NCBI GenBank assembly: GCA_010645155.1
Contig: CM021320.1
Span: 3,590,745-3,654,744 of the forward strand
Origin: Tigriopus japonicus
Lineage: Eukaryota; Arthropoda; Copepoda; Harpacticoida; Harpacticidae
Length of the DNA stretch: 64,000 bases
Direction: 5' to 3'
Shown here: in pieces, positions 12,769 through 64,000 of the stretch
How the letters are laid out: every line of letters begins with the position of its first letter
Numbering within the stretch: the first letter of the stretch is position 1
Position numbers and translations under genes: made by a program
The notes under the pieces: generated by a model
Told to the model about the DNA's origin: nothing
What the model saw: only the letters and a program-made list of their open reading frames with translations
The model's database searches: none

Positions 12769-14282
12769 ATGGCGTCGCCGTCAAGTGAAATCGCACCTCC
12801 AGAGCTAGAGGAACATATTTCCGAGACTTCTTCTGACTCTCTTTCTTCCCGTCCAATCTACCGAGTCTTCAAAACCCGTTGGTACATCCTAATACTGTTC
12901 TCGTTGTTGGCTTGCTTTCAATGTCAGGTGTGGAACACTTGGGGTCCCATAGAAGTGGCGGTTAGATATGGCTATGGATGGCAGGATTCCACAGTAGCCA
13001 TGATGGCTAATTGGGGTACCATCATGTTTGTAACCATGGCCTTTCCTTTGTCGTATTACTTAGAGGTCCGTGGTTTGAGGGAAGCCGTCATTTTGGTGAC
13101 GGCCTTGTCCGCCATTGGCACAGTGATACGAACGTTCCCCTTGGGTTCCACGTATTTCACTTGGTCAAGTCACATTTGCGCCATTTTGAATGGAATATCC
13201 GGCGTCACTGTGATGTCCGCCCCACCTGTGATATCCGCTCTGTGGTTTCCGCCCAATGAGCGGGCTTTTGCCACGGCTGTGGCTCAGGTAAGTCTTAAAA
13301 AATATGTTCAAGACCAAACTTACAATTTAAATAATTATTTTTTCAGGTTGGCAATCAGCTTGGATCAGGAGTTGCCTACCTACTTGGACCGTATATGGTT
13401 CCGGATACGCGTATCCCAGTTAATGGGTCATTATTTTTATTATCTTCTCCTAAAGTGGACCAAAGAGTGATTCAACAAGACATTGAGTGGTACATGATCA
13501 TAACTGCTACAGTCTTTGTGGCAATTTTGGTCATAGTTGTGTTTTATTTTCCTTCGCAACCGTCCATTCCTCCATCGCCGAGCGCGGATGTGCCCAGAAC
13601 TAACTACAAATCGGGCTTGATCAGTATTGCCAAGAACAGAAATATGTGGATGTGTATGCTGGCCTATGCTATTCCGGGAGGGGTCAATGGAGGTTGGGCA
13701 GCTGTGATGACCATCAATTTTGAGCCCCTGGGTGTTGATGCGGCCGAAACCGGATTCATAGCAGTGATCGCTGTGCTCAGTTGTGCCCTTGTGACGTTAG
13801 CCTCGGCTTTTGGATTGGACCGCGTCAGACGATTTTTGAAACCTTGTCTTTTGGGCCTCTTGACCATGTCGACTCTTTTCTTCATCTGGTTGGCGCTCTT
13901 GTGCCTTCAATTTATTCCCTTTTCTAAATGGCAGATCTATGTGGCAACCATTGGCGGGATATCGTGCAATTTTGCCACAAATCCCTTGTTCTTTGAGTAT
14001 GCTGTCGATTTAGCTTATCCCGTATCCGAAGGCTTGGTTGCCACCTTTTTGACCGCCTTCAACAATTTTATTGGGATTATCTTTTTGGGAGTATTTTTCA
14101 TCCCAAACATAACGTTCACATGGATGAACTATGTTTTAGTAGGATCATCCTTAATTAGTATTCCATTGGTTGTTTTTACCAAAGGAAGTTTTAGAAGAAT
14201 GGCAGTCGACGATGGTATCACATCCTCCAGTGAAGAAGGTTACAGGATCCTTCAAAATCCATCCGATGATATCCTTTGTTAA
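12769..14282 (+). CDS. SLC49A4: MFS transporter, SLC49A4 (DIRC2) type, two exons
   Basis: Two coding exons, 12769-13287 and 13347-14282, separated by a 59-bp phase-0 intron (CAG|GTAAGT ... TTTTCAG|GTT). The product is 484 aa, close to the 478 aa of human DIRC2. A polar acidic N-terminus with Glu/Ser clusters precedes the first membrane segment. WNTWGPIEVAVRYGYGW, the segment around VMSAPP, WFPPNERAFATAVA after TM4, and the central LAYAIPGGVNGGW match the SLC49 family pattern; about 12 hydrophobic segments follow MFS order. Human SLC49A4 sits in the lysosomal membrane and has been reported as a proton-coupled pyridoxine exporter, so a lysosomal solute exporter is the likely role here, by homology. 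The tail ends in an acidic, Ser-rich stretch. The start has good context (GCCAAAATGG). FLVCR1/2 are the next-best family members. Confidence 0.9.
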
Positions 14283-23400: not shown

Positions 23401-25412
23401 CGGTTGTTCTCCAAAAGTTGGAAATGTTTGTATCAACTCCGAATCGCAACATCCTGTTTTGGGGTTTGGGCCATTTGGACGCCATCTGATGATATTTGAA
23501 GACTGTAAACAAGTTTTCACGAGCCCAAGATTTGTTTCCACTCATTTGGGAACTCGAGCTCATATGCAGGTACGTCTTGGCTCAGTACCCAACTTATTCT
23601 CCTCCTTAATAAGGCCAAGTGACCCGAGTCATACTCACGGGGAAATTTCCGGGTTAAAAACCTTGCATGAGTCGGTCAACGTTGAACAACGTGTTTTACT
23701 TACTTCCTAGGAAGAGAATCCTTGTGTGTCCGTTGCGGATCATTTGTGTTTGCCCTAGATTTTTCTACCAATTATTGCGAATGGCGTTGCCAGGATTAAG
23801 ATACGATTCATAGTTGTCAATTGTTTCAGAAGGAGTTGTTACTCAGTTTATCAGATGAGGACAGTGACCGAATTTTAACACGAGCTCCTCAAAGACGTGT
23901 TTCTTGAACAGTGTATATTTGAACGCCAAATTTACTCCTTGTGAAGATCAGTCTTACTCTTGACATCGACCCGAATAGAGGTCAATTACAAAAATTTGAA
24001 CATAGTTTTGATCCCCATAAAATATAAAGAAGGTAAGAAATCCCCACTATTTTTCATTGAAATGATGAATTAGATCCTAATGTAAACAGCAGTCTCTCAA
24101 TTACCCACAACTGATATGCACACTTCTGATAGCTTGGAATATTTAGAATTAGTAAGAAGAAAAATTAATTATTCGTATTTTTATTGGCTATGACGGTGAT
24201 GTAAAACAAATAGTAAACTCTTATGGTGTAGGATGTAAATTTATGATCCAACACATTTATTTTTTAAGACTTCAATGCAAAGTGATCATTTTATTCTGAC
24301 GTCTGATATTGATCTGTGTGCTCTATGCGCTTTTGTGTAAAAGAAAAAGAAACTTATGAAATTCAAAAGCAACATTAATGTTTGGTAAAATTTAAATCGA
24401 TGCACAAATGTTGAGATTTTACGATTCACACTCGGGGGTCACTCTGCCTACGAAGTTTTTTCATTTGTGCAATCCCTTAACCGAAAAATATTTAAGTGAT
24501 TGACAGTAGATATGTTTAGTTGTGAAGTAAAGTGTACTGAGCTTCTCATGAAATTTGTGTTCTGAGGCAACTTAACAAGAGTTTGTTTAAAAGTGCTTGC
24601 AACAACAGGTTTCCCTCTTTTGCTTCATGTGCTCAATGTCCTTGAATCATTCTAGTTGGGGATGAATTCGTTCGCAAATCCGTTTTATCGAGCAGTGATA
24701 ACAACCAATAGGAGTTTGTTTTTACAATTGATCATGCATGAATCTGACAGAGTTGAAGTGTATGTTAAGAGCCCCGTAGGTCTGGGCGGAGCGAGAAGGG
24801 TTCCAATCCCCATAAATTGGGCACAGCAACGTGGGATGTGGAATTTGGTTTCGGCTGCTGCAGGACTAACAGCTGATGCTCTTTTCAACGTTAGGAAGAT
24901 CGCAGAATGACGTTCATTGCGAGTGACAGCTGGGGAAAGGAGAAGCTGTTCTGGCCCTAACAGCATATTCAGTCCACGGGGCTGGACCAAGAGGAAAGCT
25001 GTTTGGATGGCCATGTTGGCCAACTGTGACTGAGTGTAGAACTAGTCTCTGCTTTGGTAGAGGAGTCCAGGTTATTCTTTATGCTCTCTCCGAGTAGCAA
25101 GAAGTGAGCAAAGCTTGGCACTGGCTTCTCCTGTGAGACTGTTCACGAGCAAGTCAATGACAAAAAAGTGTTCTCCTCGCCTTTCTTTGGAAGACAAAGC
25201 TTGTTTTAATCGGGTCTCCTAAGATTGCTTTGTAAGTATAGCCAAAAGTTTAAAAGCAGGCGTCAAATTTCAGTAGATAAGAGTGAAGCCAAGGACTCTA
25301 GGCGTTGAATAGCCAATCTCTCACCAATGAACTAGCAGCTTGGCTCTCCCTAATGAAGGCAATAAGGGAAGATTTCAGAGTCTATAACTCGAACACGATT
25401 TCTTATTTTCAG
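20401..25412. other. Intergenic / probable 5' region of the AN1 zinc-finger gene
   Basis: Higher G+C patches at about 20400-20540, 21390-21480 and 22560-22680 could hold promoter or non-coding 5' exons. They include CA repeats at 20544-20559 and a consensus CRE (TGACGTCA) at 22589-22596. I cannot define exons. Frames at 21757-22095 and 24656-24910 have no recognisable product. Confidence 0.3.
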
Positions 25413-25439
25413 AAGAAGGGCTCTATCCTCGCAGTCATC

Positions 25440-26403
25440 ATGGACCAGGAATCGAATCAGATGGAACAGCAATCCGTGCAATGTCGCAACGGGTGCGGCT
25501 TTTACGGGAATGCGGGCAGTGAAGGCTATTGCTCCGTGTGCTACAAAGAGGTGATCAAGAAGAAGCAACAACCACCAACGAATATGCCTTCATCATTGGC
25601 ACCCACACATGGCACGATGGCCAGCCTGTCCATCGACGAAGCCTCGTGTTCCAGAGGCACCGCCACCGCCGCTAGTCAATTGAAATCTACTTCCCTCAAC
25701 ACGGCTTCCCCCACAGTCCTGATACCACCTTCACAAATGGAAAAGGTAATAAACCCTCCATCAAAACGAGCCTTAACTAACAGAGATACAGAGAACTCGA
25801 TTTATATCCTCTAGATCAAGATCCACTTGCTTAACAATGATCAATCCTTGTTACAGAGGGAGTCGGAGACAGACATGAGCGGCTCCTCAGCTTTGTTAGG
25901 CGGTTCCCCACTCCCCTCTGATATCAACGCAACAGCGGCTTCACCAAGCTCCTCCTCCCCTTCGGAAGATGCCGATAGTGGGCCCAAGGATGGCAAAAAG
26001 AAAAAGAACCGTTGTGGTTGTTGCAAGAAGAAAGTGGGTTTAACAGGTAAGAGCCAACAATCTTGTGTTAAGTCTTTGTAAAACCCTTGTTATTGCCAAA
26101 GCAAATGCATAGAAAAGTCTGGTCTTCCCAGCCGAATTAGACAATGAAGACTAAGTAAAGTAGGATGTCGAATCAAGGCACCCTACTGAGTAGCGCACAA
26201 ATTAATGAGAACAGTTCTGCAGAATGTCCTCTAAATCTGGGTTCTTCTTTTTAGGATTCACTTGTCGTTGTGGAGGACTGTTCTGCTCAATACACCGATA
26301 CAGTGATAAGCACGATTGTCCCTTTGACTATAAGGAGCTGGGTGCTGAGGAAATCAGAAAGAGCAATCCTATGGTGGTAGCCAAGAAGATCCAAAAGATC
26401 TAG
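25440..26403 (+). CDS. ZFAND6: A20/AN1 zinc-finger protein, ZFAND5/ZFAND6 type
   Basis: Coding exons 25440-25745, 25857-26046 and 26255-26403; introns 110 and 208 bp with GT/AG ends (GAAAAG|GTAATA, TTACAG|AGG, ACAG|GTAAGA, TTTTTAG|GAT). The 214-aa product matches the family length (human ZFAND5 213, ZFAND6 208). The N-terminal A20-type finger is [20 protein letters not shown] (residues about 16-35). A Ser/Thr/Pro-rich linker follows. The C-terminal AN1 finger starts [19 protein letters not shown] and ends at [18 protein letters not shown], with the conserved tail VVAKKIQKI. Family members bind ubiquitin or ubiquitinated cargo through A20 and act in protein turnover and stress response. A 3' splice site (TTATTTTCAG, ending at 25412) lies 27 bp before the ATG, so at least one non-coding 5' exon lies upstream. 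ZFAND5 versus ZFAND6 cannot be decided. Confidence 0.93.
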
Positions 26404-36366: not shown

Positions 36367-36475
36367 TTGCTCAGCTAGAGTCGAGTTCTCTGAAGTTCAT
36401 CGTGTTAGGGTCCTGAAGTGAAACTGACAAAGCATTGTTTATAAATTTTACAAAATTCACCCCTTTCGTATTAAT

Positions 36476-36547
36476 GCGATGGTGGTATAGTGGTGAGCAT
36501 AGCTGCCTTCCAAGCAGTTAACCCGGGTTCGATTCCCGGCCATCGCA
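36476..36547 (+). tRNA. tRNA-Gly(TCC)
   Basis: A 72-nt cloverleaf. Acceptor GCGATGG pairs with CCATCGC, discriminator A at 36547. D arm TGGTATAGTGGTGAGCA carries the A box. Anticodon stem GCTGC/GCAGT encloses loop CTTCCAA with anticodon TCC at 36509-36511. The T arm CCGGGTTCGATTCCCGG contains a perfect B box. No intron, no mismatch in the acceptor stem; it looks functional. It lies alone, between the foldback-like element ending at 36366 and a retrotransposon remnant starting near 36725. Confidence 0.97.
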
Positions 36548-36552
36548 GTTCC

Positions 36553-42520: not shown

Positions 42521-45247
42521 TTATGCAGAACTGTCATGTTGTTGGTTGAGATTTATGCCGGAGGTTCCAAGTAAGCCACTGGCCGTATTCAATAAATTGA
42601 TCGGGGTTCTTCCGTCAGTGATCAGGGTGGAGCTCAATCCAAGCGATTGCAGCATCTTGACTTGATGGTCTTGAGGGCCGCTGACCATAGCCTTGATGGT
42701 GTCGGTTCCCAACGCTTGGACCATGAGCTGAAACTTCTCCGTTTCAATTTTAGCCATCAACTCTGCTTTCTCAATGTCAAGGCGGTTCTGTTCGGTTAAA
42801 AATTGGATTTCAGCTTCTCTAGCACCACGCAGACGCTCCAATTCAGATTCAGCTTCAATCTTGGCTGCTTGAGCCCGCAGTCGGGCAGCTTCGACTGCGG
42901 CTTCCGCTTCAATGCGGGCAGATTCAGCCCGAGATGAAGCCTCCGCTTTAGCTTGGCCGGTTGACTCCACTGCGGCGCTCTCAGCTTGCAGTGTGAGAAG
43001 GCTCCTACGGGATTTCTCTGCCTCTGCATCATCGCCGATTTTCTGTCGTTCCAACCGTCCTCGAGCTTCTTGATCAACTCTCTCAGCTTCTCGTTTTGCG
43101 GCAGCCTCCTGAGATTGAGTTGTGATCTCAATTGCCAGAGTCACGGACTTTTGCAGGGAGTCTCTGGTACGTTGATCTACAGGCTCCACACTTCTGATGT
43201 CGATCGAAGTGACGACCAAATTATTAGCCGGAAACCTTAGCTCTTCGTTCGGTTTCATTCCTTCGTCAACGCCAAATACTGCGAGTTTAATGATTCCGGC
43301 AGAGTTCTTGTGAAAGTTGTCGAAACTAACCCCGGAAACTGCTCCTCGAATCCGAGATGCGATTGCTTTACACATGTCGCCAACAAAATCGGGAACGCAA
43401 AATAGTTTAGCTCCTTCTTCTTGGTTGCTTTTGTCTTTGACTTCAAAATGCCAATTGTACGATAGTTGTAATTGCAGACGAGCATGGTCACTCGTTTCAA
43501 CGGTGATGATATCGGTACAAAAGTCCGGGCCCAAGAGGAGAGCCAAAGCTCGAATCAAGTTGGCCTTCTTGGGCTTGCCTCCAGAGATGGAAAGTTGCGT
43601 AAATTCCTCATTAGGTTCCAACATCACCAAGTCGGGTCCGAAAGCGACTCGAGATCTCTTGGATTTGTAGTCATAGATCTGAACGGCTGCGTTGTTGGGA
43701 ACTTGAAACGTGACTACCCGGGTGAGGTCGTCTTCATCCCAATCGCTCTTGGGTTTGGCATCTGCCTTATCGATTTTCCGCTTCTCCTTCTCCGGGTTGA
43801 TCCATTCTCCTCGATCGGCACAAGGGTCTCGGTTTCGGTTCAGCAAGGTCCTCACGATGACCGGCATCTTTTTTGGCCATAGTTCTTCATCTTCCCCCAA
43901 CATATAAGTTTGTCCAATAACTGATCGGACCGATCCGTTTTTCGAGTTTCGAACGTAAATGCCCTCATTTTGATGAAGAGGAATGGCTTCTCTGGTAACT
44001 ACAACTTCAACCTCCACGGGTGGAATATATTCCATGGGTCCTTTTAACATCCATTTGTCACCTGCTTGTCGAGTTACAGGTGGATCTACTGAGGTGTCCA
44101 AAAACTTCTCCAAGGACCTTAAAACGAGACCGCTATCTTCTCCCAAAACGTGAACATCTTGAATTCCATTCTCAAGCTCTTCTCCTGGTTGCAAGAAGAA
44201 GCTTTTCTCTCCCTTGACAAGAACCTTATGTCCCAGTTGAGGTTTTCCATCATTGCCGATGGGATTGACAACAACACAATACTCTCTCTTCGTTAAAGTT
44301 ATGATGTCCACGGTCTGAACGACATGTTCATACACATCCGGAATGAAGGACTCCATATCTTCCAAAGTGACCAAGTATTCTTCTCCGTTTTTCCTCTCCT
44401 TTCCTTTCTGATCCACAAATGATTTCATAGCCATGACATGGACAGCGGTCTTGTCGGTCAGGACGGTTGCCGTACATCTTTCTACAATTTCCTCGAAGGC
44501 TCCCGGCAAATAAGATCCTTGACGGCGAACAAGCCATTCTTCACCCGCAACCCGCTTTTGGTCATGCCGATCGATGGTGTCCCGGAGGGATCTCAACTTC
44601 AAAGCCTCATTGGGTTTGATAATCACAGCCTTTTGTGTCGAAACAACCTCAACCTCTTTCCTTGGAATGTACGTTCCAGGTCCCTCAAAAAGATACTCAT
44701 CTCCGGCTACTCTTGATGTACCACTATCATCGAAGTCTCGCAAGACCCTCAATCTAAGAGCAGTTAAGGCGTGGACGACCGTCAAAGGTTGCACCTTCGA
44801 TTCCAGTTCTTCCCCTGGATACAAAGGAAATGGGTCTTGTTCCAGCCGAACTTCGGTTTCAGCATGAAGAAGCTTCACTTGGCCCAGCCGATCTGTCACA
44901 ACGGATCCATCTACAGCCCGAGCCACCGGATTTTTGATGGTACAATAATGCCGTGGAGGCACCACAACCATCTTGACAGGGGTTTGGAGGACCTTTTCAT
45001 TATCCTTGCGAATGAAGGTTTGAGGTCCAACTTCGACCCGGCTGGTATTGGAGGTTTGATCCAAAACGTGGATGTAGTGGTAGGGTGGAATTCGGAACAG
45101 GGATCCATCACAGTCCGTATCTTTGTCTCGCCCCATCTTGGATCTTGGTTCTGAAAATGGAGATTGTTCCCTATGAGATGTTGAATCGTCCCAACGTGAT
45201 CGACTTGAATTTTGATCCAGATTGCGTTCTCGGTTTCTTTTGCTCAT
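42521..45247 (-). CDS. MVP: Major vault protein
   Basis: A single uninterrupted coding exon of 908 codons from ATG 45247-45245 to TAA 42523-42521 (human MVP is 893 aa). MVP is the main structural protein of the vault, a large hollow cytoplasmic ribonucleoprotein; 78 copies form the shell. Conserved blocks run in order: [13 protein letters not shown] at residues about 50-62; repeated shell modules with [24 protein letters not shown] and [15 protein letters not shown]; the shoulder region with [16 protein letters not shown] and [20 protein letters not shown]; a long Ala/Glu/Arg-rich cap helix ([20 protein letters not shown]); and the cap signature [20 protein letters not shown] near the C-terminus. 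The N-terminus is about 41 residues longer than human MVP, polar and Ser/Arg/Asp rich; an alternative ATG at 45136-45134 (Met38) would give a more usual 871 aa. The C-terminal tail is short. A pyrimidine-rich 3' splice site (TGGACCTTAG) about 35 nt upstream of the ATG suggests a 5' UTR intron. It lies head to head with TEP1. Confidence 0.97.
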
Positions 45248-46039
45248 TATAATGTACCAACCTTGTGAAAACGTGTTGTCTAAGGTCCAGAGAAGGAACA
45301 AGTAAATGAGATCCCCAGATATGCAGACTTTTTCAAGCCAAAGATTTCACCAAGTTGCACAATGGTTACTCAGATGTGTGGGCTAACAACGTCCTATTCC
45401 GAAAGAATGACTCAGCCTTCAAGGGATCTGTTATCTTCGTCGTCCAGGGAACCTTATCGATTTGGCCACGTCTTTGGGCAATCATAAAAAAATCACCTGC
45501 TACGGCCCGTTATTGTCCTTAGGTACGCTAATCGATGTTGTGACAATGTGAAGACTGCTTTCCCATTGGCCTGTCCAAGAACCTCCCACAATAATTCTAT
45601 CAGGTTTTCATTCACACACTGTACAACTGAATCACTCTTTCAGTCATGTGTTTATGCGAGAATTTTGCCGAGAAACGTACTATGCTACATGTGGGACTTC
45701 CCGGACTTCCTACACCTACCTGCCTCTGTGAGCCTGCCTCTGTGAGAGAGCACTACAATCTTGCACCATGGTGAACTTGTAGTAAGTTGATAAGCACGTT
45801 TGGTTACACTTACACAGCCTTCTAGGTGGGAACCCATTTCAAGCTCAGCCTTTAGAACTTCGCTCCAAATCAGTGTTCAAACTCCAGTGTTTTCAATGTG
45901 ATGCTACGCATGGTGTTTGCTTTTACGGTTCAAATAAACCCAAGCAGGTAAAGTAGCTAATGTTTTATTATTTGTTAAAAAAAGGTTTAATTGCTAACCG
46001 GAAGAGTATTCATTCTAGTCGTGAGATAGAGAAGTCATC
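45248..46039. promoter_or_regulatory. Shared divergent promoter region of MVP and TEP1
   Basis: 792 bp separate the MVP start codon (minus) and the TEP1 start codon (plus); no other gene fits between them. Seen here: ATTGG (reverse CCAAT) at about 45565; a 14-bp direct repeat TGCCTCTGTGAG at 45721-45747; and, near TEP1, a likely 71-bp 5' UTR intron (45948-46018: AAGCAG|GTAAAG ... TTGCTAAC ... CATTCTAG) with a textbook branch site. No TATA box is obvious. That one promoter drives both vault genes is inferred from the geometry. Confidence 0.6.
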
Positions 46040-49000
46040 ATGAATGCTTGCGGGAGTGAAAAGGTCCTGTCTGCAAATGAGCCAACTCCATCGGGAGTCA
46101 AAAGAGGTCTCTCGAACCTGGCTTGTTCTCCCACTCACCCCGCCAAAAGATCGCTTACAACGACATCTATGAATTTGACAAACAAGCTCTTGTCGAATTC
46201 TTCCGAGTACCCATCTTCTAGTTTATTCCCCACACAAAGTCTCTCCTTGAAGTCCAAGTATGACCTGATTCCCCTGACAAACTCTCTCTTGAGATCTAGC
46301 ACTCTTACTGGGGGACTCTCAACAAGGTCGAGTTTGATCTCTTCAGTGCGTGCCCAAAAACAACATTTGACAAATTCCCTGCTTTCATCTCCCTCGAAGA
46401 ACTTGCTGAGTGGAAGCATTTCTTCTTCAAGTACTTTGAGCAGCAGGAAACCATTGCTGTCATCCAACTATGGGACGGGAACTCGTCTCTCAGGGAATGC
46501 GGGACTCTCTTACAAATTCAGCACAAGCTATCAGAAGCCAACTTTGGCATCCAATGTCAAAGAAGAAACCAACCAGATCTCGACAACGGAAAAGGACGAG
46601 AAAGAGAATTTTCCTGATTATAGTGACATTTTCAAGCAAGACATCCAGGCAACGCCGCCCCAAATAGATTTGTCCCAAACATCGGATCTTGCCAAGCTTA
46701 GAGAGGGTTTCCAAAAGGCACAAAATGAGTTGAGGACCAAAAAGGTAAATTGAATTTCCTTTGAAAGTGCACGAGAACGAGAGAGTGAAAAATTGTATCA
46801 TTCGTCTTGACTTATTTCCGTCTGATTCTTTCAGGATTGCTTGGTCTCTTTGGCATCGACAGCTCTTCTTCATAATCCCGACTTGGAGGATCCCGAAGAT
46901 GCTACTCGGATCAATCTGTTGAAGGCTGCTGATATCGTTGCTGAGAAGGAGGGGGAATTTATCCTCAAGGTACATAAGCGCAATACCTCGAATTAGAGAT
47001 AACAATGCCTTGAGGATTAACCATGAAGAACACATTTTGAGTCTCTGAGTAATGAACACAAACAGCTGAGCTACTTGTGCACTTTTTTCTTTTTCTATTC
47101 AACATATAACGGATGAATTCAAGCGTAGTTCTCCTACTTCTGCGGAAATGGGTCCTTGGCACAAGCACATTAATCTTCCGGTTTCTTTGAAATGAAGTCA
47201 GCGTAAAAGTATTTCCCTTAGGAAAGAGGGAAGTATCCTTTCACCCAAAAAAGGCCTAATCTGTGAGAACTGTGTAACATTATGGCTGAATCAACAGTGT
47301 GGCTCGAAACTGCTAGGTGTCGCTTTCTCAGATATTATCTACCTAATCCTTAGTACCCTGAACAGAGTGTCATCATCCTAATTAATCTGTTCCACTTCTA
47401 TTCGAAGGGAGCTGATGTTGAATACAAAACCAAAGATGAGAAAAGTCATTTTATTTCTATTCCACAGTTAGCGCTTTACTGCCGCCAAGAGTTGAATATT
47501 CGTACCACGGCCAACTTTCTACTTGCCTATGCGTCTCTGAAAGATCCTTGCAAACCGTACCTTCATCGTTACTTCAAAGATTCTGTTCGTCTACCTTCGG
47601 ATTGGATGGAAGTGGCGGATCTGGTTTGTTCCTTTGGCGTTTTGAATGCGGGTAGTTTGCCCGCAGTTCTGAGACGGGTCATGGTGGAAAAGTTCCTGGA
47701 CTTTGATGCCCACCAATTGGCTAAGCATAAGAAAGTTAAGAAAACTGAGGTAAGATTCCTGCTTTATTAAAAAAGTTCAATTTGCTCTTTGGAAACGAAG
47801 GGAACGAAAACAAACTGAAGATACAGAAGACAAAGATCAGAGACCTGCTAGATGTAAGAAAAACGGGGTTTCCCCTTCCTTTTTGAGATCATTGATGCGT
47901 AAATGACGGCGTTTTGACATCCAATTTCAATCTTGCTCATCTTAATTCCTGTGACAGTGCAAGAACCACTGACTTTCTCTGGAGAAGGAGGCTAGCGATA
48001 TTTTTTTTTCATTAGGAGCAAAGCAATGACGTTCTTCTATAAATGAGACCTTGCTTATATTGAGTAGACTAGGTATTTGAATTTTCAACTTAATCAAACT
48101 TCACAGTCAATGGTCAGAATCTTAGTTTCTTAAGGCTTTACACAGAATGAATAAGTTAGCCCTCTTTTGGCAATTGTTTAACCTCATTCATTCTGTGCTC
48201 TCTTCAGGATATTGCTTTGAGAATGCATATTTTTTGGCATTACATTGAGCACTAAGTTGAAATACATCATCAGAACAATCCAAGTTCAATCTCATTTGGG
48301 GAAAAACGCCATCGATTTGTTCCTAATGAAAATCATCTTTCTCATTGCTTGCCTCTCAATCCAGGAAATTGAGTGATTCTTGGACAGTTCAATGGTGTTT
48401 ATTTCGTTTGACTCTTGATGAAGGAGAGCAAAAAGATGTTTCGTCATTCATCAAACGTGATCCAAATGGAACAAGTAAATGTTCCTTTCACACTTCATGT
48501 TACAAGAACCTTTCGAGAATATTACATTGTTTCATTTACAAATCTAGTGAGCATATCATCAGAACCGCGTTACGAAAGGGATTATTATTAGTGTTTGTAA
48601 AAGTGGAAATGTCTGTATAGCAACATGCTTTGTTGAGATTACTGAATATTAGATCGAGCATTTGATGCTCAAGCGAATTGCTCGATCGTCTGAATAGTTC
48701 TGTATGATTTATTCTTGAGTCTACAGTGCAGTTGTAAATCACCGTGTCTGAAATTTTGCTCCCAGAACCATCCTTGTTTAGCTCAACCCAAGTTTGTAGC
48801 AACTTGCTACTAGCAAGTCTCAAAGGAGTCTGATTTATGAGAACGACAATAGTTCGGGGCAGTCTTGGAAAACCCCGAACCCCGTATTCAGCCAAGTGTT
48901 AAAGTTCCCATTATAATACTGTACGTGTGAGCAATCCAAGTCATGGCGAACTCTCTTCCTGAATTGTAGATCAAGTTTCCGAACGAGGTCCAAGTTCAAA

Positions 49001-52000
49001 AGCCCTCGAAAGATGCAAACCATGATGCAGACTTCCCAGATTTGAACACCTTTGCTAATCCTCAACCAGTCTCCGATTGGAGTGAGGAACTTGAACCCGA
49101 CGAATTACGCTTGAAAGCACTCGCCAAGAATCGGAAGAAGCGATTCAATTTGAAGCGATTAATTCGTTTGCTTCACATTCGAGAGCCAACATTCCACGTG
49201 ATGGGAATTTTGGGCAAAAGGTACGTGAGTCTGATGCATATATAGTCAATCATTGGTGAGACCACTTGGTATTCCAACCAAGCTTGATTTTGGGAGAGAA
49301 ATGATGCCAAACTTTCGGCTGCGCTATTTCATTCTTAAATGCGTTTACTATCTCCTTTGGCCTGTGGAACCTTTAACAAAGTTTTATTGTAGAACGAGGG
49401 AAATGGGGAAAAAGGGGGCTTACTTTTGTCGAGAAAGGGATTTCAAAACTTTGAGCTAGAGCAATTGTCTTCCTCAACTCAAACATTTAAGTCGTGCCTA
49501 ATGACCTGGCATTTGGCACATTGGAGACAGTCGCTAAAACAGAGGCCTCGCTAGTAAAACTATTGCTCAGTCGAGCTGAAATTTGCATGAACGTCAAACT
49601 TTCCAACCAAGAACATGCCATCTAGTTTTGGATATGAGAAGGTTTCCGAGCGTCTAGAGCATTCATTCTATTCATTCATGTGCTCGTTTTAATTCTAGGT
49701 ATCCAAGCAATGTAGAGGAATTTCTTGCCTCACGACTGCCCGAAATGTTCGACCAAAGTCAAGCCGGAAAGCGCATGAAACTACCCACTCCTGAAACTTG
49801 GGAGACTCAAATTGCCAAGTAAGATTGACAATTCAAGTTTCACAGAGCCCTAGTTTATAAACCGTAAAGATAAGCTGGTTGTTATATAACGTAGTTAAAC
49901 GACTTCTTTATCCGTGAAGAGAAACTTCCTTCGGCTGAAGCTACAGCAGACAGACTTGATGCATTTATCTATTACTTGAGAGGAAATGGAGTTGTAGAGT
50001 GACATTTCTGTGGGAGGATGAAGGCAAAATTCTGTTCAGCTGATTGAATAAGAAGGCAGACAATAGATTAAGACAAAAGAAATAACTTGCTTTAACTGGC
50101 CATTAAATGAGCTTAAAGGACAAAAGTGACCATGAAGTGGGCACCATTTGTGTCGATTTTTGTCGTTTCCCTCCATTTAGCCACGGTTAAGGCCCAAGAA
50201 AATCCAGAGACGCCAATTTTTGCCACAGTGCAATGGTCCCCAAGCTCCGGGTTCAGTTTAATCAAAGGGCCTCTTAACAAGACGTCTCAGACTGTTGCTT
50301 GGGGCAGTTTTACCAATGCAATCAACCAAACCGGGTGGAGTTTCTTGGAAGTGGAGACTGATCCGAGCTACCCTGACGAGATCCAGGCCCATGCCGTCGG
50401 CTATCTTGAAGGCCATTTGACCTCGAAACTTATTTATTGGCATTGGATCAATACCGTCCAAAGCTACTGCCGGGGTAAAGAAGATCTCTGTCAAAGAATC
50501 GTTAAGCATATCCATGACAACACCCGTTGGGTTAAGTCGATGGTGGAAAAGAAACGGAACAAGAGAGCTTATTGGCATCAAGTTGGTCTATTTTATGATC
50601 AATACAACGGTCTTGTAGCGGGTTACAATGATTCAACCGAGACCAATATCATTCCTCATGGCGATCTGTTTTGGCTCAATCTCGTTGGGGATCTCTTAGA
50701 TCTCGAGCAGGTTTATGCCCACAAATACAACCTTACAAACCCGCACCAAAAGGGCGACGGCCATTGTTCGGTCCTTATTAAGGTATTGCCAAAAAATGAA
50801 GATCTTCTGGTCGCTCATGACACTTGGCTCAATTACTCATATATGCTTCGCGTGCTGAAAAAGTACAGCTTGCGCTACAAAATGAGAAGGAAATCCGGCT
50901 CCAAATTGATTCCTGGTCATTCCATAACTTTTAGCTCATATCCAGGACTATTATTTTCTGGGGATGACTTCTTCACCGTTTCGAGTGGTTTAGTCGTGAC
51001 TGAGACCACGAACGAGAACTTCAATCCCGACTTGTGGCAATATGTAAGGCCTAAAGGTCAAATCATGAATGCAGTAAGGGTGATGGTGGCCAATCGTCTG
51101 GCCGTAAATGGAAAACATTGGACCAAGATTTATGCCAAGCACAATAGTGGAACCTATAACAATCAATGGATGGTGGTGGACTACAAACGATTCAAACCTG
51201 GTCGGAATCTGAAAAGTGGCCTTTTGTGGGTTTTGGAACAACTTCCCGGTCACATTCATGCAGAGGATATGACCAATGTGTTGAAGAACCAATCATTTTG
51301 GTCAAGCTACAATATTCCATACTTCGCCGATGTCTTCAACATGAGCAATTTTGGAGAACAAGTGAAAAACCATGGCAATTTCTTTTCCCATGATCAAACT
51401 CCTCGAGCCTTGATTTTCAAGCGTGACCAACCTCAAGTTCAAGATCTCAAGTCTGCCATCAAACTAATGCGATCAAACAACTTTAAAAAAGACCCTCTCT
51501 CGATATGCACTCAGTGCAATCCTCAATATAACGCAGAATTTGCCATTTCTGCTCGAAACGATTTAAATGAACGGAATGGAACGTACCCGCTAAGTATATT
51601 TGGAGAAAGTTGCGCTGGAGGGTTTGATATGAAGATCACCAACAGAGAAATGATTGAGAAATTGGAGTTTGTTGCTCAAAGTGGGCCGACATTCGACAAT
51701 TTGCCCCCTTTCCAATGGAGCAAATCGGATTTCGATTCTCAAGTATCACACGTGGGTCAACCAGATCTGTGGAATTTTTCTCCTATCCATCATGTTTGGA
51801 AGTTACCCTCTTTGGCTGATTTACCTTGAAACAACATATTTTGTACCACTAAACATCTGTGTCAACATATTTAACTGGTTTGCATCGACTCGACCGGTTT
51901 CAACTTCATCAAATCATGAATCAGCCCAAAATCAGATCAGTTAATGACTCGTCGTAGTTGTACAAATTAACTTAAAAATCAATAAATCAACTTATGTTAA

Positions 52001-55000
52001 GCTATTGATATTGGGTATTCAAATAGATTTCCTATTTTCGAAGAATATGATCAAAACATATTAAAAGGATGAACTGCAAAACATTTTTTCATCGTTTCTC
52101 TTCTAAGGCAAGCCGGATATCTAAAGTTACGGCTCACTCGTAAACACAAAAAATAATAGCAAAATGAACGCTAAAAGATAGTGTTTTTCAGCTTGTGTTC
52201 GATTTAACTTCTTATTTGACGATTGGTTCACAGATTTCTCATCTGACAAGATTACGTAAAAATGTTAAGGAGGTATTTCTTGTAAAACCTATCGAAGAAA
52301 GTTGTTGTCATCGACTTTTAATAATCCTATTTGACCACCTTTGCCTGAAATGAGACGTAGAAGAGCGTGGAACTGTTTTAAGGAAATCAGGCATTTGATT
52401 TATGGTTAGGTCACATTTTTGAAAAAAAAAAAATGTTTTACCTCCAAATAGGTAGCTCACCGGGTGAACCAATCAGCGGTGCCAAATAGGCAGTGTATTT
52501 TGCTCAGCTATGTGATGTTCTTGAGAAGCTGAACAATTTGAAAGACTTTTGTGCGCCTTTTACATAGATCAAAGAGTTGAACGGATATTTGATCAAAAAG
52601 CTCCTTTTCAAAGCCAATCAGGGATTGAAACTACGGTCTATCACAAATGCTTCTACTTGTTAAGTCTGAAAACTCTTCATATCGGAGACTGAAGACTCCA
52701 TAACCTTTAGTCTTGAAGTCTATAGTCTATAAAAGAAAAGTCTATTGACAAGGGTGGGAGACATTGCGGTTTCTATCAAAGGAAAAAAGAACACTACGTT
52801 TATTGTAAACAACACATGGTTTTGTCTTTGTTTTGGGCTTTAGCAAATAGACTTGGTCTGACCTGTTTTTTTGTCTTTCAGACATGGCAACAAGGCTGAA
52901 ATTTGGGAGTCTCTCATTGACAACAAGAAGCTCCCATACATGGCAACCATACGCAACCTTAGGAATCTCATCCTCACTGGAATCGATGACGCGCATGTGC
53001 AAAAAGTCGCCAAATACATCTCCAATGAGAAAGCTGTGATTGGTAGCAGGATGTTTCCCTTTCAGTTCTACACTGCCTTCGATGTTTTGCGAGACCTTGA
53101 TGTCTTTAAGGACAAAACGATCAATCAGTCTGATCTGCTTAAAACTAATGGAATGAAGACAAAACCAAAAGGAAAGGGCAGTTATTCAGAAGCAATGTTG
53201 AAAAAGAAGATCTACCATAAATTGATCAAACGGAAAGAGACAATGAACTCGGGGTCAATCACGGTTTTCCAAGATGCCTTAGAGAAGGCCGTAACCATCG
53301 CCTCAAATAACAATATCCCACCGGTCAAGGGAAGCACGTTAATTTTGTTTGCCTTTGGCTCTGAACTCAGAGAGACCACCAAGATACGAGCCGTTCAGAA
53401 GCATATGACCCCTTCCCAGATGTGTTGCCTAATGGCTGTAATGCTGGAGCATTCATGCGAGGACTGTGAAATGGTCGCTTTTGGCCACAAAGAGCAAGAA
53501 AAGGCTCCACGTGTACAAGATATAATGGGCCTGTTGTCAAGTGCCAAGTTCCTCGACAACTCTCGCATCAGTCGTTTGGCCACGTCCACCAGTGTGTTGT
53601 CCTTTGATTCTGGAGCTCTGGACGATCTTCGAAGAAATGAGAAATGGATTGATAATCTGGTGGTTATCCATGGACCTCTGGCACAAGCTGATATTGATTA
53701 CGATATGACTTCTTGGCTTGCCAAGTACAGACATGAAGTCAACCCCGATCTTGTTTATGCAAATATCAACCTTGATGGAAGTAAAGCTCCCCCTCAATCC
53801 CACAATGCCAACGATATCTTTTTGGTCGGCTTCAGTGAGCAGATTTTCCATACTCTTTCAAATTCGAGTCGAGGCGGACAACTTGAGAGGATTGAAAGCA
53901 TCGATAGGCGATTCAAATTGGCTCCCTTGAAGAAGCCTCTTATCGACATTCCAGCCCCTGAAATGCATCTCTCGGGAAGGTCTCCGAAGTGGCGCCAAAT
54001 CAGGGTGTTTGTCTCCTCTACTTTCACTGATATGCACGGCGAGAGGGATCTCATCAATCGCTTTGTCATTCCTGAATTGCAAAGGCGTGCTAAGTCTTTG
54101 CACATGGAGATACGAGCCATCGATTTGCGTTGGGGTGTCCTCCCTAATGGTGGAAAGCACGACATCAATGAGGATAATGTATTCGCCTCATCACTTTGGA
54201 GAGGTGGCAACTCAAGAAATGAAGCCAATGGCAAGGCTCAAGTCATGGCTTGCCTTCGTGAAATTGAAAAATGCCATTTGTTTATTGGCCTTTTAGGGGA
54301 CCGTTATGGGTGGAAGCCCCCGCTCTCGGCCTCTTCCTTTCTCTCAGAAAACGAATTATCCATGAAATTGGAAGCTTTGAAAGGCGAAATGGGCAGAGCC
54401 TCAATAACGGAAATTGAAATGGAATATGCTGCCCTTCACAACCCCGAAGAAAGTCGGGACCGGGCGTTTTTCTTCCTTCGGGACTCCTCCCGTCTTAACG
54501 CTCAATTGCCTCCTGACTTAGCCAAGCTTTTTAAGTGTCAAGACGAAGAGGATGAGCGAAGATTGCAATCACTAAAACAGCGAATTATCTTCAGTGGGTT
54601 GGAGGTCTTCAATGGCTATCCCGCCCACTTAGAAGGCGGTGAAAATCAGAACAAACCCACCACGGCTGGACTCGAAGCCTTGGGCCAAAGGATATTGGAT
54701 TCGCTCTGGAATTCTCTATTGAATTTGGATGAGAAGGCCAAGCGAGAAAATGAAAAGCCAAGCGACGAAGGCCATTCCGAGTTTCGCGATCACCAAGAAT
54801 ATAGCTCTTACGTTGCCTTGCACAAGAGTGTTTCTCGCTCCAAAATTGTCGATAGCATTCATGAATCTCTTGGCAGATTATCAGGAGGCATTGTGGAGCT
54901 TACTGGTAATCCTGGAAGTGGTCTTTCCACTCTTATGTGCCAAAGCTTCAATGAAATGAAGAAAAGATCAACTCTTAACGCGACGCAGAAAGGCAAGAAC

Positions 55001-58000
55001 GGTCCTCCAATTCTGGTGCCTTTCTTTTCGGCTGCCTCTCAACATGGAACAGGAAACATGAAGACTTTTCTTATTTATCTTATCCAATCCTTGTCTGGAA
55101 TAGTGGATGGCAAAGGCCCTAGTGGGTGCACCAAAATCCAGGAATATGAACTTCAACAACTTGATGCCAAAACTTTAGGTGTTCGAGTTGCCTCGTTGCT
55201 GACCATGGTCTCTGAAGTGATGACCTCTAATACACGATCTGGAAAGAAACAAAAGTTGGTGTTGTTTGTGGATGGTTTGGAAGATTACATGGAGCAGGCG
55301 AGCGTGGATTGGCTGCCACCCCAAATTTCCGACGGTGTAATTCTCGTGGTCTCGTCTCACGTTGGAAGCAAATGGAACAAACATCTCCAAAACCGAAAAG
55401 AGAAAGACCATCGAGCCATCAGAGTTGGCCCTTTGACTTTATTGGAGAAGAAGGCCTTGGTAAGACAATGTCTCGAGCAAAGAGGGAAAAAGTTGGACGA
55501 GACAGCTTTTAACAATGAGCTCAACTTGTTGGTGAGCAAAAGGGATGCTTCGAATCCAGCATTCCTAAGCCTGCTAACCAATGAGATGGCAGGCTTTGGT
55601 GTCTTTGAAGAGCTCCAATCGAAGCTATCCATGGCAGGGAATACCATGCCTGAACTTCTCTCGCAGATTTTGGAACGCCTTGAGATGGACCTGAGCGAAG
55701 AACTCGTGGGCAATGCCATGTGCTGTTTGGCCCTAAGTGCAAAGTTAGGGTTGACTGAGAATGAGCTTCATTCCGCTCTGGCCCTTCTGAACACTTCCCC
55801 TTTCGAGAAGCGAGACGTTACAGTGGCCGAACTGAGTCAAATATTGTCCGAGGGGCAGTTCAAACCGATTCCCTCCCTCGAACTATCAATCCTCATAAAT
55901 GGACTGGAAAGTTTCCTTCAACCCACACGGGGTAGCCTCATCGAAGGACTCCTCCTTTTAAAGAAAGGAGAATGGTTGAAATCTGTTACTGAGCGTTACC
56001 TCTCCAAGAGGTGCCACTCGGCTCAGAACATTCATCTTGTCTTGGCGGGAGTTTTTCATCATATTTACCGTTTCGCTCCCAACCATCCCAGGGCCTTGCA
56101 AGGATTGCCTGAGCATTTGGCCTCGACAGGAAACGTGAAATTGCTCGAGCAGACCATTTGCAGTCTTGATTACATTCGTGAATGCGCCGCCTTTCCTGAC
56201 ATCCTTTATGAGTTGGTCCTTCGACATTTCAATGGTCATTACTTGAGTGGGAGACCTCAGACAGAGAGGTTCTTAGCCTCTGAGAGAGTCCAGGCATATT
56301 CTGCCTTTGTTCATCTGCACTCGGACTCGTTGATTGAACAACCCAGTCTCACGTATCAGTTGGCTTTGACAGAACCGCAGACCTCACTGCCTCATCAGGA
56401 AGCACTTGCAAAAGCTATGAATAACGGTTATGATGCGAATCAGATTACCAGAAGTAGTTATGCTTCGTCGGCCCCTCTTTGGCTTTTCTGGGAAAATAGG
56501 TCAAACAAAGACGGCTCGATGGAGAACAATGGGATCGCCAACAATCTGCTGGCAGTCAAGGCTTGCAAATCGAGTCGAGTGGCAGTGATTTGCTTGGAAA
56601 AGTCCTCATTAATTCCCCCAGAGGAATTGCTTGTGGCTTACGGCCATGATGATGGTCACATCATAGTGGCTTTGGCTCATAATAACGAGGAGCTCTTCTC
56701 ATTGGTTGGCCATTCGAGCCCCATTTCGTCCTTGACGTTTCTCCCGGGTTCATCGTCATCTGAGACGTGTTTGGTAAGCGGATCTCAAGATGGCATGATG
56801 TCTTTCTGGGATCTTAACAGTCAGATCAGGACGAATTCGGTCCAAGGACATACTCGATGTGTCAGCGGCCTTGCTTGCAGCTCTGATGGCCTAACCCTTG
56901 TCTCAGTTGGGTGGGATGGACGAATCAAGATTTGGAGTGGGCGCTCTCAAAGAGAGATGTCCTGCATTCAACAGAGCACACAAGCCTTTAATTGTGTGGC
57001 CTTTCACCCCGACAAGGACTACATCATTGCAGGTGGTTGGGATGGATTATTGAAGATCTATGACCTCACAACACTTGAAAGAAAAGCCATAGTTCGAGGT
57101 CACTTGGCCTCAATTCAATGTGTAGCCATTTCAACGGATGGGAAGAAAATTGTCAGCGGCTCCAGTGATGGCGTTGTTAAAGTGTTCGATAGTGGCATTG
57201 GGGGAGAATGTGGCTCATTCAGCGTTGGCCAATGTGTTCATTCAATTGCCTTGGACAATAACAAAATCAATACCGAAGGTGTTCCACGAATCTTGATTGG
57301 AACACGCGATGGCGTGATTCACTTTTGGACCACTGACGATGGCACCAGACATCCATCTATTGTTTTGGATTTGACAACGGATCTATCTCTTGATGTTGAA
57401 GCGGGAGTCGAAATTCCAAGAAACTACGAAGATTCTTCTATGGAAATCGATGGGATTGAATCTGAAGATCGACTGAGAGTCTTGAGCTTCTGCATCCTAC
57501 CTCGTCCGTATGGAGTCACATGCACGAATATGGCCATTGGTTGCGCAGACGGAACGCTTTTGGTCGTAAAAATTTGTAGCGTGTCCAAAGCAGTGATTGC
57601 TCGTTCCAAAATAGCTAATGGACCGATACTTGAGACTCAACCAATAACATGGGAACACCTGTGGTCTAACAGCACCTTCGAGCAATGCTACTTCTGCTTA
57701 GTGAAATCCACTGAAGGAGTCTACCTCACGTTTATGAGTAAGGAAACGCTGAATGCTTCTCGTTTACCTTTGGGCGATTCCGAAGTTGAAGTTGTGGGAG
57801 TTCGATTATTTTCATTTGGCTCTTCCGATCATGACATTGCTCTGGCAATTGGTACATCAGCGGGATTTTGTCATCTTGTACAAGTTCAAAATTCAACTTT
57901 GACTAAAATGAGGCAGGTCTTCAAGGAAGCCGTATGTTTTGGTGATGAAGAACTTCTTGATTTCAAGGTTTGCAAGAAGAGTGAGGAGAGCTGCACTGAG

Positions 58001-59602
58001 TTCCATTTCCTAACTCTGACATCCTCCAATGTTCTGAGTCTCTGGCTTGGCACCAAAACTGGAATATCCTTGTTGACTTCCTTCACTGATTTCTTTCTGG
58101 GAACAAAATTATTTAACTGCAATTTTGGCCAGAAAAAAGTTGTGTTTGTCACCAATGAATTGGGAAAGTTCGATTCATATCTCGTTTCCGCCAAAACCAA
58201 GTCGACTGATCAAGAGGAGGATAATAACTCATCTCTGGAATACAGTTTTGTCCATAAAGGAAGATATGAATCCCAAAAGGCTGGATCAATTAAAGGCTTT
58301 CTTGAAGCCAGTGAATCCGACTCCTACTTTGCTTGCATTCACGAAAACAGAGACATCACCATCTGGTCCAAAAAAGGCATAGAAATCAAATGGATCAGCA
58401 TGGAACACCAAACTCAAAACCTGCTGAGTTTAAGCTGTCAGTCGATTGAGGGCCCTTGCTTGAAAGATAACGATCCATCCACGTGGTATTTAACCACGTT
58501 TAACCCAAGCGAAGATTCCGTTCGATTTCAAATGTTCGATGTTTTTGGTGCCACTCTCACCGAGTCCTACATTGGCCATAATGGTCCCGTCACAGCACTG
58601 AATCTGGCCCATGACAGGGTATTTAGTGCCTCTCGAGATGGGACTTTGAGGATCTGGGACGCTTGCAAACGAGGAAAGAGGGTGAATGGAAGTCCTGTGG
58701 TGGGTCTGCTGGCGTGTAATGGACTGATCTTAACTGTGTGTCGTGATGGCTCCTTAGTTAGCCATGAGGTGGAAGGAGGCCATTCCAAAGTTCTGGGGAG
58801 CTTCTTCAATGGCCAGGACCACACTGAACACATTAGATATGCCTCTCTGGTCTCCCTCCAGGAAGCTATTGTTATCATTGTGGCTACCAATCACCGGGCG
58901 TTGCGTGTGGCTCTTCTGGAAGGGGAAGAAAACCATTTGACTTTCCCTTGGCATAAATATTTCTTGAACAGGGAATTGCTGTACTTCGATGCCAAGCAAT
59001 CTGATCCCCAAACATGTACACTCACTCTACTCTTTGATAAACCAAAGATCTCTGGCATGGATATAATTCAGCAACTCTCTCTGAAATTGTCCACCCTAAA
59101 GCAGAAACCCTGCTCTTCAAGCCTTATAACTTTAGGCCAATGGGCTTTAACAGAGATCTCCTCATTACTGACGAGGACAGAAGCTCCCATTCATTTTCAC
59201 GGCCTTGACTTGCCGGATAATGGCTCCTGGATCTCGTCTGCAATGCTCATGAATCTGCCTGAGTTGAACCAGATTCTAATTACGGGCGATGTGAAAGGGT
59301 TCTTGGTAGTCAAGCTCCGTGCCGAGCAATCGTTTTGTCAACGAATCCATAATCAAGCCATTACTGGTTTACTGAACTGGTCTGGGAAATTAGTCTCGAT
59401 CTCTTTGGATGGTAGACTAAAAGTATGGCTAATTGAACCTAATGCTCATTCGGTCAAATTGACAGAAATCGGTCAGTTTTCATCGAATAACACTCCTCTA
59501 ACTTGTTTAAATACTTTGAATGTGGATGGTCGCGTGAAACTTGTCGTAGGAAATCGGTATGGCCAAGTTTACGTGCTGGATCATGGTCTAAAATCGAATT
59601 AA
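46040..59602 (+). CDS. TEP1: Telomerase protein component 1 / vault protein TEP1, six coding exons
   Basis: Coding exons 46040-46744, 46835-46969, 47468-47749, 48970-49220, 49699-49818 and 52882-59602; all introns GT/AG, the first three phase 0, the last two phase 2. The product is 2737 aa (human 2627). TEP1 binds the vault RNA and sits in the vault cap; it was also found with telomerase. Domains: Ser/Leu-rich N-terminus (1-235) without the human 30-aa repeats; TROVE/RNA-binding module (about 240-850) with ALYCRQELNIRTTANFLLAY, RFNLKRLIRLLHIREP and AGKRMKLPTPETWE; DUF4062 starting IRVFVSSTFTDMHGERD (about 871) with IDLRWGV; NACHT with a P-loop GNPGSGLS (about 1173-1180) and Walker B LVLFVDGLEDY; and a long WD40 region from about 1745 to the end (for example VSGSQDGMMSFWDL, FSASRDGTLRIWD). 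The P-loop lacks the usual Lys. The last intron holds a PLBD gene. AATAAA signals follow the stop. Confidence 0.95.
49883..49889 (+). promoter_or_regulatory. Possible TATA box of the nested PLBD gene
   Basis: TATATAA about 240 bp before the PLBD start codon and 65 bp into TEP1 intron 5. It is the best TATA-like sequence in the 310 bp between the TEP1 donor and the PLBD ATG. Position only. Confidence 0.25.
50132..51829 (+). CDS. Phospholipase B-like protein, intronless, nested in TEP1
   Basis: 565 aa from ATG 50132 to the TGA at 51827-51829. A 22-residue signal peptide (KWAPFVSIFVVSLHL core, cleavage after VKAQ) points to a secreted or lysosomal glycoprotein; several N-x-S/T sites follow (NKT, NQT, NDS, NLT, NYS, NMS, NGT). 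The family block GHCSVLIKVLP...DLLVAHDTWLNY surrounds Cys212, which in PLBD1/PLBD2 (N-terminal-nucleophile hydrolase fold) becomes the catalytic N-terminal residue after self-cleavage. The C-terminal blocks CNPQYNAEFAISARNDLN, SCAGGFDMKITN and QPDLWNFSPIHHVWK are also typical. Family members are lysosomal amidase/lipase-like hydrolases; Drosophila lama is a relative. There is no intron in 1.7 kb, same strand as TEP1. Lack of introns could mean a retrocopy, but the frame is intact and all key residues are kept. PLBD1 versus PLBD2 orthology is not decidable by eye. Confidence 0.93.
   Translation: MKWAPFVSIFVVSLHLATVKAQENPETPIFATVQWSPSSGFSLIKGPLNKTSQTVAWGSFTNAINQTGWSFLEVETDPSYPDEIQAHAVGYLEGHLTSKLIYWHWINTVQSYCRGKEDLCQRIVKHIHDNTRWVKSMVEKKRNKRAYWHQVGLFYDQYNGLVAGYNDSTETNIIPHGDLFWLNLVGDLLDLEQVYAHKYNLTNPHQKGDGHCSVLIKVLPKNEDLLVAHDTWLNYSYMLRVLKKYSLRYKMRRKSGSKLIPGHSITFSSYPGLLFSGDDFFTVSSGLVVTETTNENFNPDLWQYVRPKGQIMNAVRVMVANRLAVNGKHWTKIYAKHNSGTYNNQWMVVDYKRFKPGRNLKSGLLWVLEQLPGHIHAEDMTNVLKNQSFWSSYNIPYFADVFNMSNFGEQVKNHGNFFSHDQTPRALIFKRDQPQVQDLKSAIKLMRSNNFKKDPLSICTQCNPQYNAEFAISARNDLNERNGTYPLSIFGESCAGGFDMKITNREMIEKLEFVAQSGPTFDNLPPFQWSKSDFDSQVSHVGQPDLWNFSPIHHVWKLPSLADLP
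51981..51986 (+). terminator. Polyadenylation signal of the nested PLBD gene
   Basis: AATAAA 152 bp after the stop codon. As it lies inside TEP1 intron 5 on the same strand, TEP1 transcripts must read through it. Confidence 0.6.
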
Positions 59603-62885: not shown

Positions 62886-64000
62886 TATTTTTCCATTTTT
62901 TCAACATAAATTCCGTTTAGTTCGATGAATTTTTTACATCTCTCTAATCAACCCTCAAATGTATTTAAAAGGCCATCTTTTGACAACACTCTAAGGACCC
63001 CCTGCACGGCTAATTTAAGCTCATTCTCATTGTCAAGGTCTTCCCAGACAATTATTTTTTCAATGATGGAAAAGACCAGAAGTCATTTGATGCCAAATCA
63101 GGTGAATCAGGGGGATGTCCAAGAAACTTGATCCTTTTCTTCTCACAGAAAGCCGCTGTTTCCTGGCTGGTGTGAAGATGGACATTGCCATGATGAATAA
63201 GCCAGTCCTTGTCAGTCTTGTTTGGCCTTTTCCTCCGAAAATGGCGCAAACACCTCTCAAAGGCTTTACAGTAGTAAGATGAATTTACAGTGATTCCTTT
63301 GGAGACATAACGTTGGTAGATGGGACTATCTGAATCAAAAAGAGGACCAGAATGGCTTTCTTGGAGCCGGCAACTGTCTTTGCCTTGAGTGGGGCTTTCC
63401 TCCCTCAACAATCCATTGCTTACATTGGATTTTTGTTTCTGGTGTGTACAATTGACCCACAATTCATCACAAGTGATTATTCCATAGAGAATGTGAACTA
63501 AATATATCGGTGTAACAATTTCCCCCCATAAGTGGAGACAAACAAAAGGGAGGTAAAAGCTCAAAGTCAATCACATATTGGTCACATATGGATTATCATT
63601 TTACAATTGTCATCTTAAGTATGCAAAAGTAAATTATCCTAACCAGAACATTTGCTTTAAGTAAAGTCACTTGACGTAACTGTCTTTAGTGATTTATACG
63701 CACTTATTTCTTGACTAGGTTTAACAAACCACCCCACCCAGCACTTGCTTATCTTCTCATTTTGGCTACCCTACTGTTCCTCTGCACTTCGGCCTAGCTG
63801 ACCAGCACAGATATGAGGATAAAAGGGCTAGATTTCACTAGATTTGGAATTGTTCACACCCTCTATTGAGGAATGCTTGTCCTTCTTGAAAATGATGCTT
63901 ATTGAAGTCTCTTGAAAACTCCAAATGACGCCATCTTGTGTTCTTCTGTGAACAATGGAGGGATCCATCTTGCACTCAGCTTGGACATGTGCAGATCTTC
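62886..64000 (-). pseudogene. Broken mariner transposase, cut by the window edge
   Basis: Read on the minus strand from the right edge: HMSKLSARWIPPLFTEEHK (about 63990-63930) matches the mariner DNA-binding/linker region. Then CDELWVNCTHQ, VNSSYYCKAFERCLRHFRRK, WLIHHGNVHLHTS and PDSPDLASNDFW span 63450-63070, and FIELNGIYVEKMEK ends at a stop at 62886-62888. The second catalytic Asp (normally HDN) is Gly. An in-frame stop lies near 62950. About 300 bp of extra sequence separates the N-terminal and catalytic parts. It is inactive. The N-terminus lies beyond the window. Confidence 0.85.

Follow-up and report, generated by a model that had tools for sequence, protein, structure and literature searches.

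The genes for the two vault proteins MVP and TEP1 lie next to each other in divergent orientation in the harpacticoid copepod Tigriopus japonicus, with 792 bp between their start codons. This linkage is already in print for copepods, from the salmon louse, and Tigriopus is a new example of it. What is new here, as read from an alignment of predicted proteins, is that one TEP1 clade of seven sequences, that of Tigriopus among them, lacks the Walker A lysine of the NACHT region and keeps the catalytic glutamate of the TIR-like NADase domain. The window, which is the whole stretch of 64,000 nucleotides analysed (C6:3590745-3654744, from an assembly of 194,852,151 bases in 158 contigs), holds the following features of the pair.

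42521..45247, minus strand: MVP coding sequence, a single coding exon of 908 aa, ATG to TAA, frame uninterrupted
45248..46039, no strand: interval between the MVP and TEP1 start codons, 792 bp; candidate shared promoter plus 5' UTRs
46040..46744, plus strand: TEP1 coding exon 1, serine-rich N-terminus with no Pfam match; ATG at 46040
46835..46969, plus strand: TEP1 coding exon 2, where TROVE begins
47468..47749, plus strand: TEP1 coding exon 3, TROVE
48970..49220, plus strand: TEP1 coding exon 4, TROVE
49699..49818, plus strand: TEP1 coding exon 5, TROVE
50132..51829, plus strand: phospholipase-B-like gene, intronless and complete, in TEP1 intron 5 (49819-52881) and on the same strand
52882..59602, plus strand: TEP1 coding exon 6, with the end of TROVE, the DUF4062/TIR-like domain, the NACHT-like region, the WD40 propellers and the stop at 59602
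54416..54418, plus strand: TEP1 Glu1010 codon; the residue aligns with the catalytic Glu1008 of the human TIR-like NADase and is retained
54923..54925, plus strand: TEP1 Leu1179 codon at the position of the NACHT Walker A lysine, in GNPGSGLS; lysine lost

The MVP product matched five Pfam MVP models, which cover the MVP repeats and the shoulder domain, and six near-full-length matches to PDB MVP chains were found at 1074-1092 bits, covering residues 48-896. Among the matches listed (best 120 of 2138), the best protein match was that of T. californicus with 95% identity over 98%, and the two sequences are identical at 848 of 890 aligned positions. The next match in the same best 120 of 2138, at 82%, is a sequence with a Tk gene number, which we take to be that of T. 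kingsejongensis. The agreement of Pfam models, PDB chains and the T. californicus match bears out the name given to this gene in a preliminary description of the window. A search of the 194.85-Mb assembly yielded the MVP of the window as its single match and no second copy. Bacterial and archaeal genome contigs gave 214 MVP pattern matches and viral contigs 15, none of which was confirmed by tblastn.

The TEP1 gene extends from 46040 to 59602 on the plus strand as six coding exons forming one 2737-aa frame, with introns of 90, 498, 1220, 478 and 3063 bases in order. The exons were set by GT-AG junctions, guided by the T. californicus TEP1 protein P0122, which aligns in five blocks. The spliced protein shows 84.7% identity to P0122 over 2550 aligned positions, and in the protein search the identity to the T. 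californicus protein was 87% over the region searched. The score of Pfam TROVE rose from 96.7 bits with the last exon alone to 314.4 bits with residues 1-1664 of the spliced product, in which TROVE is full length (model positions 12-442 of 442). For the DUF4062/TIR-like domain, the crystal chain 11gz of human TEP1 was matched with an E-value of 3.3e-31. The NACHT-like region is weak, with NPHP3_N at 16.8 bits, below the cut-off of 24.8. In the C-terminal part, Pfam WD40 and Beta-prop_TEP1_C are above cut-off, and Beta-prop_TEP1_2nd reaches 81.9 bits, below its cut-off of 89. No second TEP1 copy was found, as all three TROVE matches in the assembly are exons of the TEP1 of the window. Therefore, with TROVE, the DUF4062/TIR-like domain and the WD40 propellers present, the preliminary description was right in the name of the gene and in its ATG (46040) and stop (59602), but its single continuous unit has to be replaced by six coding exons with a nested gene in intron 5. 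The two public T. californicus TEP1 models, P0122 and P0123, both look chimeric. Past residue ~2564, P0122 runs into alanine/tyrosine/glycine-rich sequence unlike TEP1, and P0123 passes from TEP1 exon-5 sequence into phospholipase-B-like sequence and back into exon-6 sequence.

The nested phospholipase-B-like gene was absent from the preliminary description. Its frame, counted from 50126, has a Pfam match with an E-value of 2.7e-182, and its T. californicus counterpart likewise lies between TEP1 exon-5 and exon-6 sequence (P0123). The P0123 model, which makes this sequence a part of TEP1, was rejected, because P0122 skips it by splicing, the frame runs from an ATG to a stop of its own, and a paralogue on contig C5 stands free. 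No phospholipase-B-like gene other than these two was found in the assembly. The paralogue shows 57% identity over residues 86-562, residues 14-91 forming a block of their own, and its coding sequence is broken by a gap of ~4.6 kb where the nested gene is continuous. The gap fits a retrocopy, and the nested gene was probably inserted as such into the TEP1 intron before the split of the two Tigriopus species; plain intron loss is the alternative.

Other features of the window were noted in passing. At 5747-6259 on the minus strand is a 170-aa frame made mostly of the repeated unit LPCDLFTVTY, a tandem repeat. An MFS transporter is spread over two overlapping frames at 12736-14282 on the plus strand, a frame with an A20-type zinc finger lies at 25302-25814 (plus), and a tRNA-Gly with anticodon TCC at 36475-36548 (plus). 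Weak Transposase_1 and DDE_3 matches, both below cut-off, give 63052-63570 (minus) the look of a mariner-type remnant.

As the preliminary description had claimed, MVP and TEP1 are adjacent and divergent, both intact, on the minus and plus strand, respectively. T. californicus has the consecutive gene numbers TCAL_04082 for MVP and TCALIF_04081 for TEP1, which stem from different annotation sources (EukProt and NCBI); its MVP record and its NCBI TEP1 record are both on a contig of 16,497,411 bases. This is evidence of adjacency and says nothing on orientation. In the salmon louse (Lepeophtheirus salmonis), a siphonostomatoid, Slinning et al. 2024 (PMC11219742) place LsTep1 (EMLSAG00000005384) beside LsMvp2 (EMLSAG00000005383), the two being on opposite strands. 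The accessible text of that paper has the wording 'opposite DNA strand' and does not say which gene ends face each other, and it gives no co-expression of LsTep1 with LsMvp2. A possible truncated LsTep1 was reported opposite LsMvp3, so that the pair may have been copied together as a unit in the louse. LsMvp1 is on another chromosome, with no TEP1 reported beside it in the same accessible text (PMC11219742), which also roots a tree with the T. californicus MVP. Our search of the literature for Tigriopus together with 'vault protein' found none. Since the harpacticoid Tigriopus and the siphonostomatoid louse have the same neighbours, the MVP-TEP1 linkage probably predates the split of these two copepod groups.

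The human MVP and TEP1 genes are on different chromosomes. For a wider comparison, the length of the carrying contig served as a proxy for the same chromosome, using the best 120 of 2138 MVP matches and the best 120 of 643 TEP1 matches. Nine named species were usable, namely T. californicus and eight non-copepods, all of the latter from outside the arthropods; species in one list only were left out, and Lytechinus pictus was dropped, its MVP row being without a contig size. Within the best 120 of each listing, MVP and TEP1 are on different contigs in seven of the nine species. All contigs are >16 Mb in Glandiceps talaboti, Branchiostoma lanceolatum, Antedon mediterranea and Lineus longissimus, and the evidence is weaker, from smaller scaffolds, in Potamilus streckersoni, Lingula anatina and Acanthaster planci. 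Equal contig sizes for the two genes were found in T. californicus and in Tubulanus polymorphus (31,900,244). The preliminary description had also held it notable that an arthropod retains vault genes. Retention in a copepod is ordinary, because MVP is found in many ecdysozoans: according to the available text of the louse paper, 41 taxa of Ecdysozoa have it, it was lost six or seven times, winged insects being among the losses, and no MVP was detected in Malacostraca or in the groups to which Daphnia and Artemia belong (PMC11219742). Among the matches listed here (best 120 of 2138), MVP was present in Limulus, barnacles, spiders, a centipede and the salmon louse.

The size of 792 bp given earlier for the interval between the two genes was confirmed. 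The interval contains no N and is single-copy, its only match in the assembly being itself. It has 42.4% GC and a CpG observed/expected ratio of 0.59 versus 0.72 for the window; the ratio is thus not raised, and a raised CpG ratio or CpG island is a criterion from vertebrates, perhaps not valid for copepods. One 14-base direct repeat is present in two copies. No TATA box was found on either strand of the interval. Arthropod Inr-like words number six, where the shuffle mean is 2.47, and an ETS-like and a GAGA-like word occur once each (expected 0.12 and 0.07, respectively), excesses that are weak given that about ten core promoter motifs were tried. Core promoter motifs were therefore rejected as an argument for a shared promoter, the excess over the shuffle mean being too weak and the TATA box missing. 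From the distance alone, a shared promoter for MVP and TEP1 in the 792 bp is a plausible candidate. The single bidirectional promoter with matched output proposed in the preliminary description is a guess. Equal amounts of the two products are not to be expected, as the mammalian vault particle contains 78 MVP and about 2 TEP1 according to the accessible text of PMC11219742. A literature search on TEP1, MVP and 'bidirectional promoter' gave a match that, by its title and abstract, concerns PARP gene evolution.

MVP and TEP1 are a genuine divergent pair, and we consider it fairly probable that they are the Tigriopus form of a linkage common to copepods, with promoters for both genes in the 792 bp that keep their transcription in step. 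The linkage would have been fixed before the harpacticoid/siphonostomatoid split, and the interval would carry the promoters of MVP and TEP1 and keep transcription in step in time and tissue, the unequal amounts of the two proteins in the particle being set elsewhere. MVP would assemble the shell around TEP1, and TEP1 inside the shell would bind RNA via TROVE and hydrolyse NAD via the TIR-like domain. It is possible, though less likely, that the two are neutral neighbours instead, brought together by an ancestral copepod rearrangement and inherited as such, each with its own promoter in the 792 bp and no selected co-regulation. Adjacency of the proteins of one complex is not itself proof of co-regulation, no promoter signature stands clearly above chance in the interval, and a third MVP of the salmon louse is unlinked by the available account (PMC11219742). 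However, the two genes have stayed neighbours in two orders of copepods and may have been duplicated as a pair in the louse, as far as that account goes, and a distance of 792 bp from one start codon to the other leaves little room for fully separate 5' regulatory regions.

That the linkage is ancestral to animals, with copepods having kept it and other groups having lost it, appears improbable. The Tubulanus polymorphus and T. californicus records with equal contig sizes would agree with it, but seven of the nine species compared differ (best 120 of each listing), and one same-chromosome case in eight non-copepods is unsurprising by chance. This comparison speaks against a general animal linkage. 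Of the two origins that the preliminary description had offered, a lineage-specific cluster fits best, with the copepods as the lineage, and the ancestral one is not favoured. That an assembly error joined MVP and TEP1, which it had named as a possible refutation, is hardly credible, because T. californicus, in a separate assembly, and the salmon louse show the same neighbours; the interval is unique and without N.

A PARP4/VPARP-like gene with both PARP and VIT domains was not found in the assembly. VIT domain matches number four (C1, C7, C7, C9) and PARP catalytic domain matches 14 (on C2, C4, C5, C6, C8, C19 and C36), with no contig common to both domains, in an exon-by-exon search that a fragmented domain could escape. 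One of the VIT matches, C7:5482675-5482950, has two internal stop codons and is possibly a decayed copy. Vault RNA (Rfam RF00006) gave no match in the assembly, where 14 of 14 control genomes were equally silent, and none beside the pair (30000-64000) at E up to 5, a result to be read with the same silent controls. In the salmon louse, vPARP and vault RNA could not be identified, by the accessible text of PMC11219742.

The DUF4062 domain of human TEP1 is shown in the available text of a 2026 preprint to be a TIR-like NADase that needs E1008, with R908 and R976 mutants being less active (PMC13174449). Activation of this NADase by NACHT oligomerisation is put forward there as speculation (PMC13174449). 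Glu1010 of the Tigriopus protein corresponds to E1008 by our reading of the alignment, in which the numbering of chain 11gz places all four named residues on matching letters. Human R976 is kept and human R908 is replaced by Thr. Judged as an active STAND/NACHT ATPase, the protein has lost the Walker A lysine and kept the Walker B Asp1295. The alignment comprised 126 rows, the window model and 125 proteins; three of 128 proteins without the anchor motif were skipped (P0128, without the Walker A lysine, and P0199 and P0210, with it). E1008 and R976 are kept in all 126 rows. The Walker A lysine is kept in 118 and lacking in eight, which are the window model and P0121 (the same gene), P0122 and P0123 (the same T. 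californicus gene) and P0124-P0127.

In a quick, midpoint-rooted tree of 33 rows, with the trait columns left out, a branch with SH-aLRT 99 sets the seven distinct lysine-less sequences apart from the other 26 rows, each of which has the lysine; P0128 and P0126 are on long branches, and P0124, P0125 and P0127 have odd composition. The catalytic Glu and the Walker B Asp are each present in 33 of the 33 rows. The position of human R908 reads T, T, V, V, A, M and L in the lysine-less sequences, and 106 R, 9 K, 2 L and 1 N in the 118 lysine-bearing rows of the alignment. Our guess from sequence similarity is that P0124-P0128 are from copepods. No literature on TEP1, vault, NACHT and Walker A together was found. 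The loss of the lysine suggests that the NADase of this TEP1 lineage either is not ATP-gated in the way proposed for human TEP1 or has become inactive. The copepod vault may be a particle of two proteins, with an NADase free of the usual ATP gating.

More tentatively, copepods could have reduced the vault to a two-gene module of adjacent MVP and TEP1 driven from one short divergent region, with the Walker A lysine lost and the NADase glutamate kept in the same lineage, so that NADase activity would be set by co-transcription and by packing in the MVP shell rather than by ATP-driven NACHT oligomerisation. We hold this to be unlikely as it stands; were it true, copepods would be a natural test of the NACHT-gating model. 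The loss of the lysine may be the part that specialists do not expect, and it uncouples two activities found together in human TEP1. Should copepod TEP1 have remained an NADase, this activity would not require that NACHT binds ATP. If it has not, the vault would be without its proposed enzyme function and have kept a structural one, which would fit MVP as a component of the salmon louse cement, as given in the accessible text of PMC11219742. The linkage across two copepod orders would mean that the genes for the shell and the NADase have not been parted in two or more crustacean lineages. Vault function is an old open question, and copepods, in which few vault components are recognised and the candidate regulatory region is short, offer a simple system for the study of co-regulation.

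Compared with known bidirectional gene pairs, whose start sites are <1 kb apart, the MVP-TEP1 pair is alike in being divergent, with 792 bp between start codons, and in having both partners in one complex, whereas its distance is measured between start codons only and its CpG ratio is not raised. With the human vault (MVP, TEP1, PARP4 and vault RNA), Tigriopus shares the MVP domain set and, in TEP1, the TROVE, the DUF4062/TIR-like domain with its catalytic Glu and the WD40 propellers. It differs from the human vault in that a PARP+VIT gene was not found in the assembly, the TEP1 Walker A lysine is lost and human Arg908 is Thr. The LsMvp2-LsTep1 pair of the salmon louse is similar to that of Tigriopus in having neighbours on opposite strands, and VPARP was identified in neither genome. 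In contrast, there are three MVP genes of three exons each in the louse and one MVP match with one coding exon in Tigriopus, and the accessible account of the louse mentions no nested phospholipase-B-like gene such as is present in Tigriopus (PMC11219742). T. californicus is alike in that its MVP and TEP1 have consecutive gene numbers and one contig size, and in the position of the phospholipase-B-like sequence, and its public TEP1 models differ from the six-exon model presented here.
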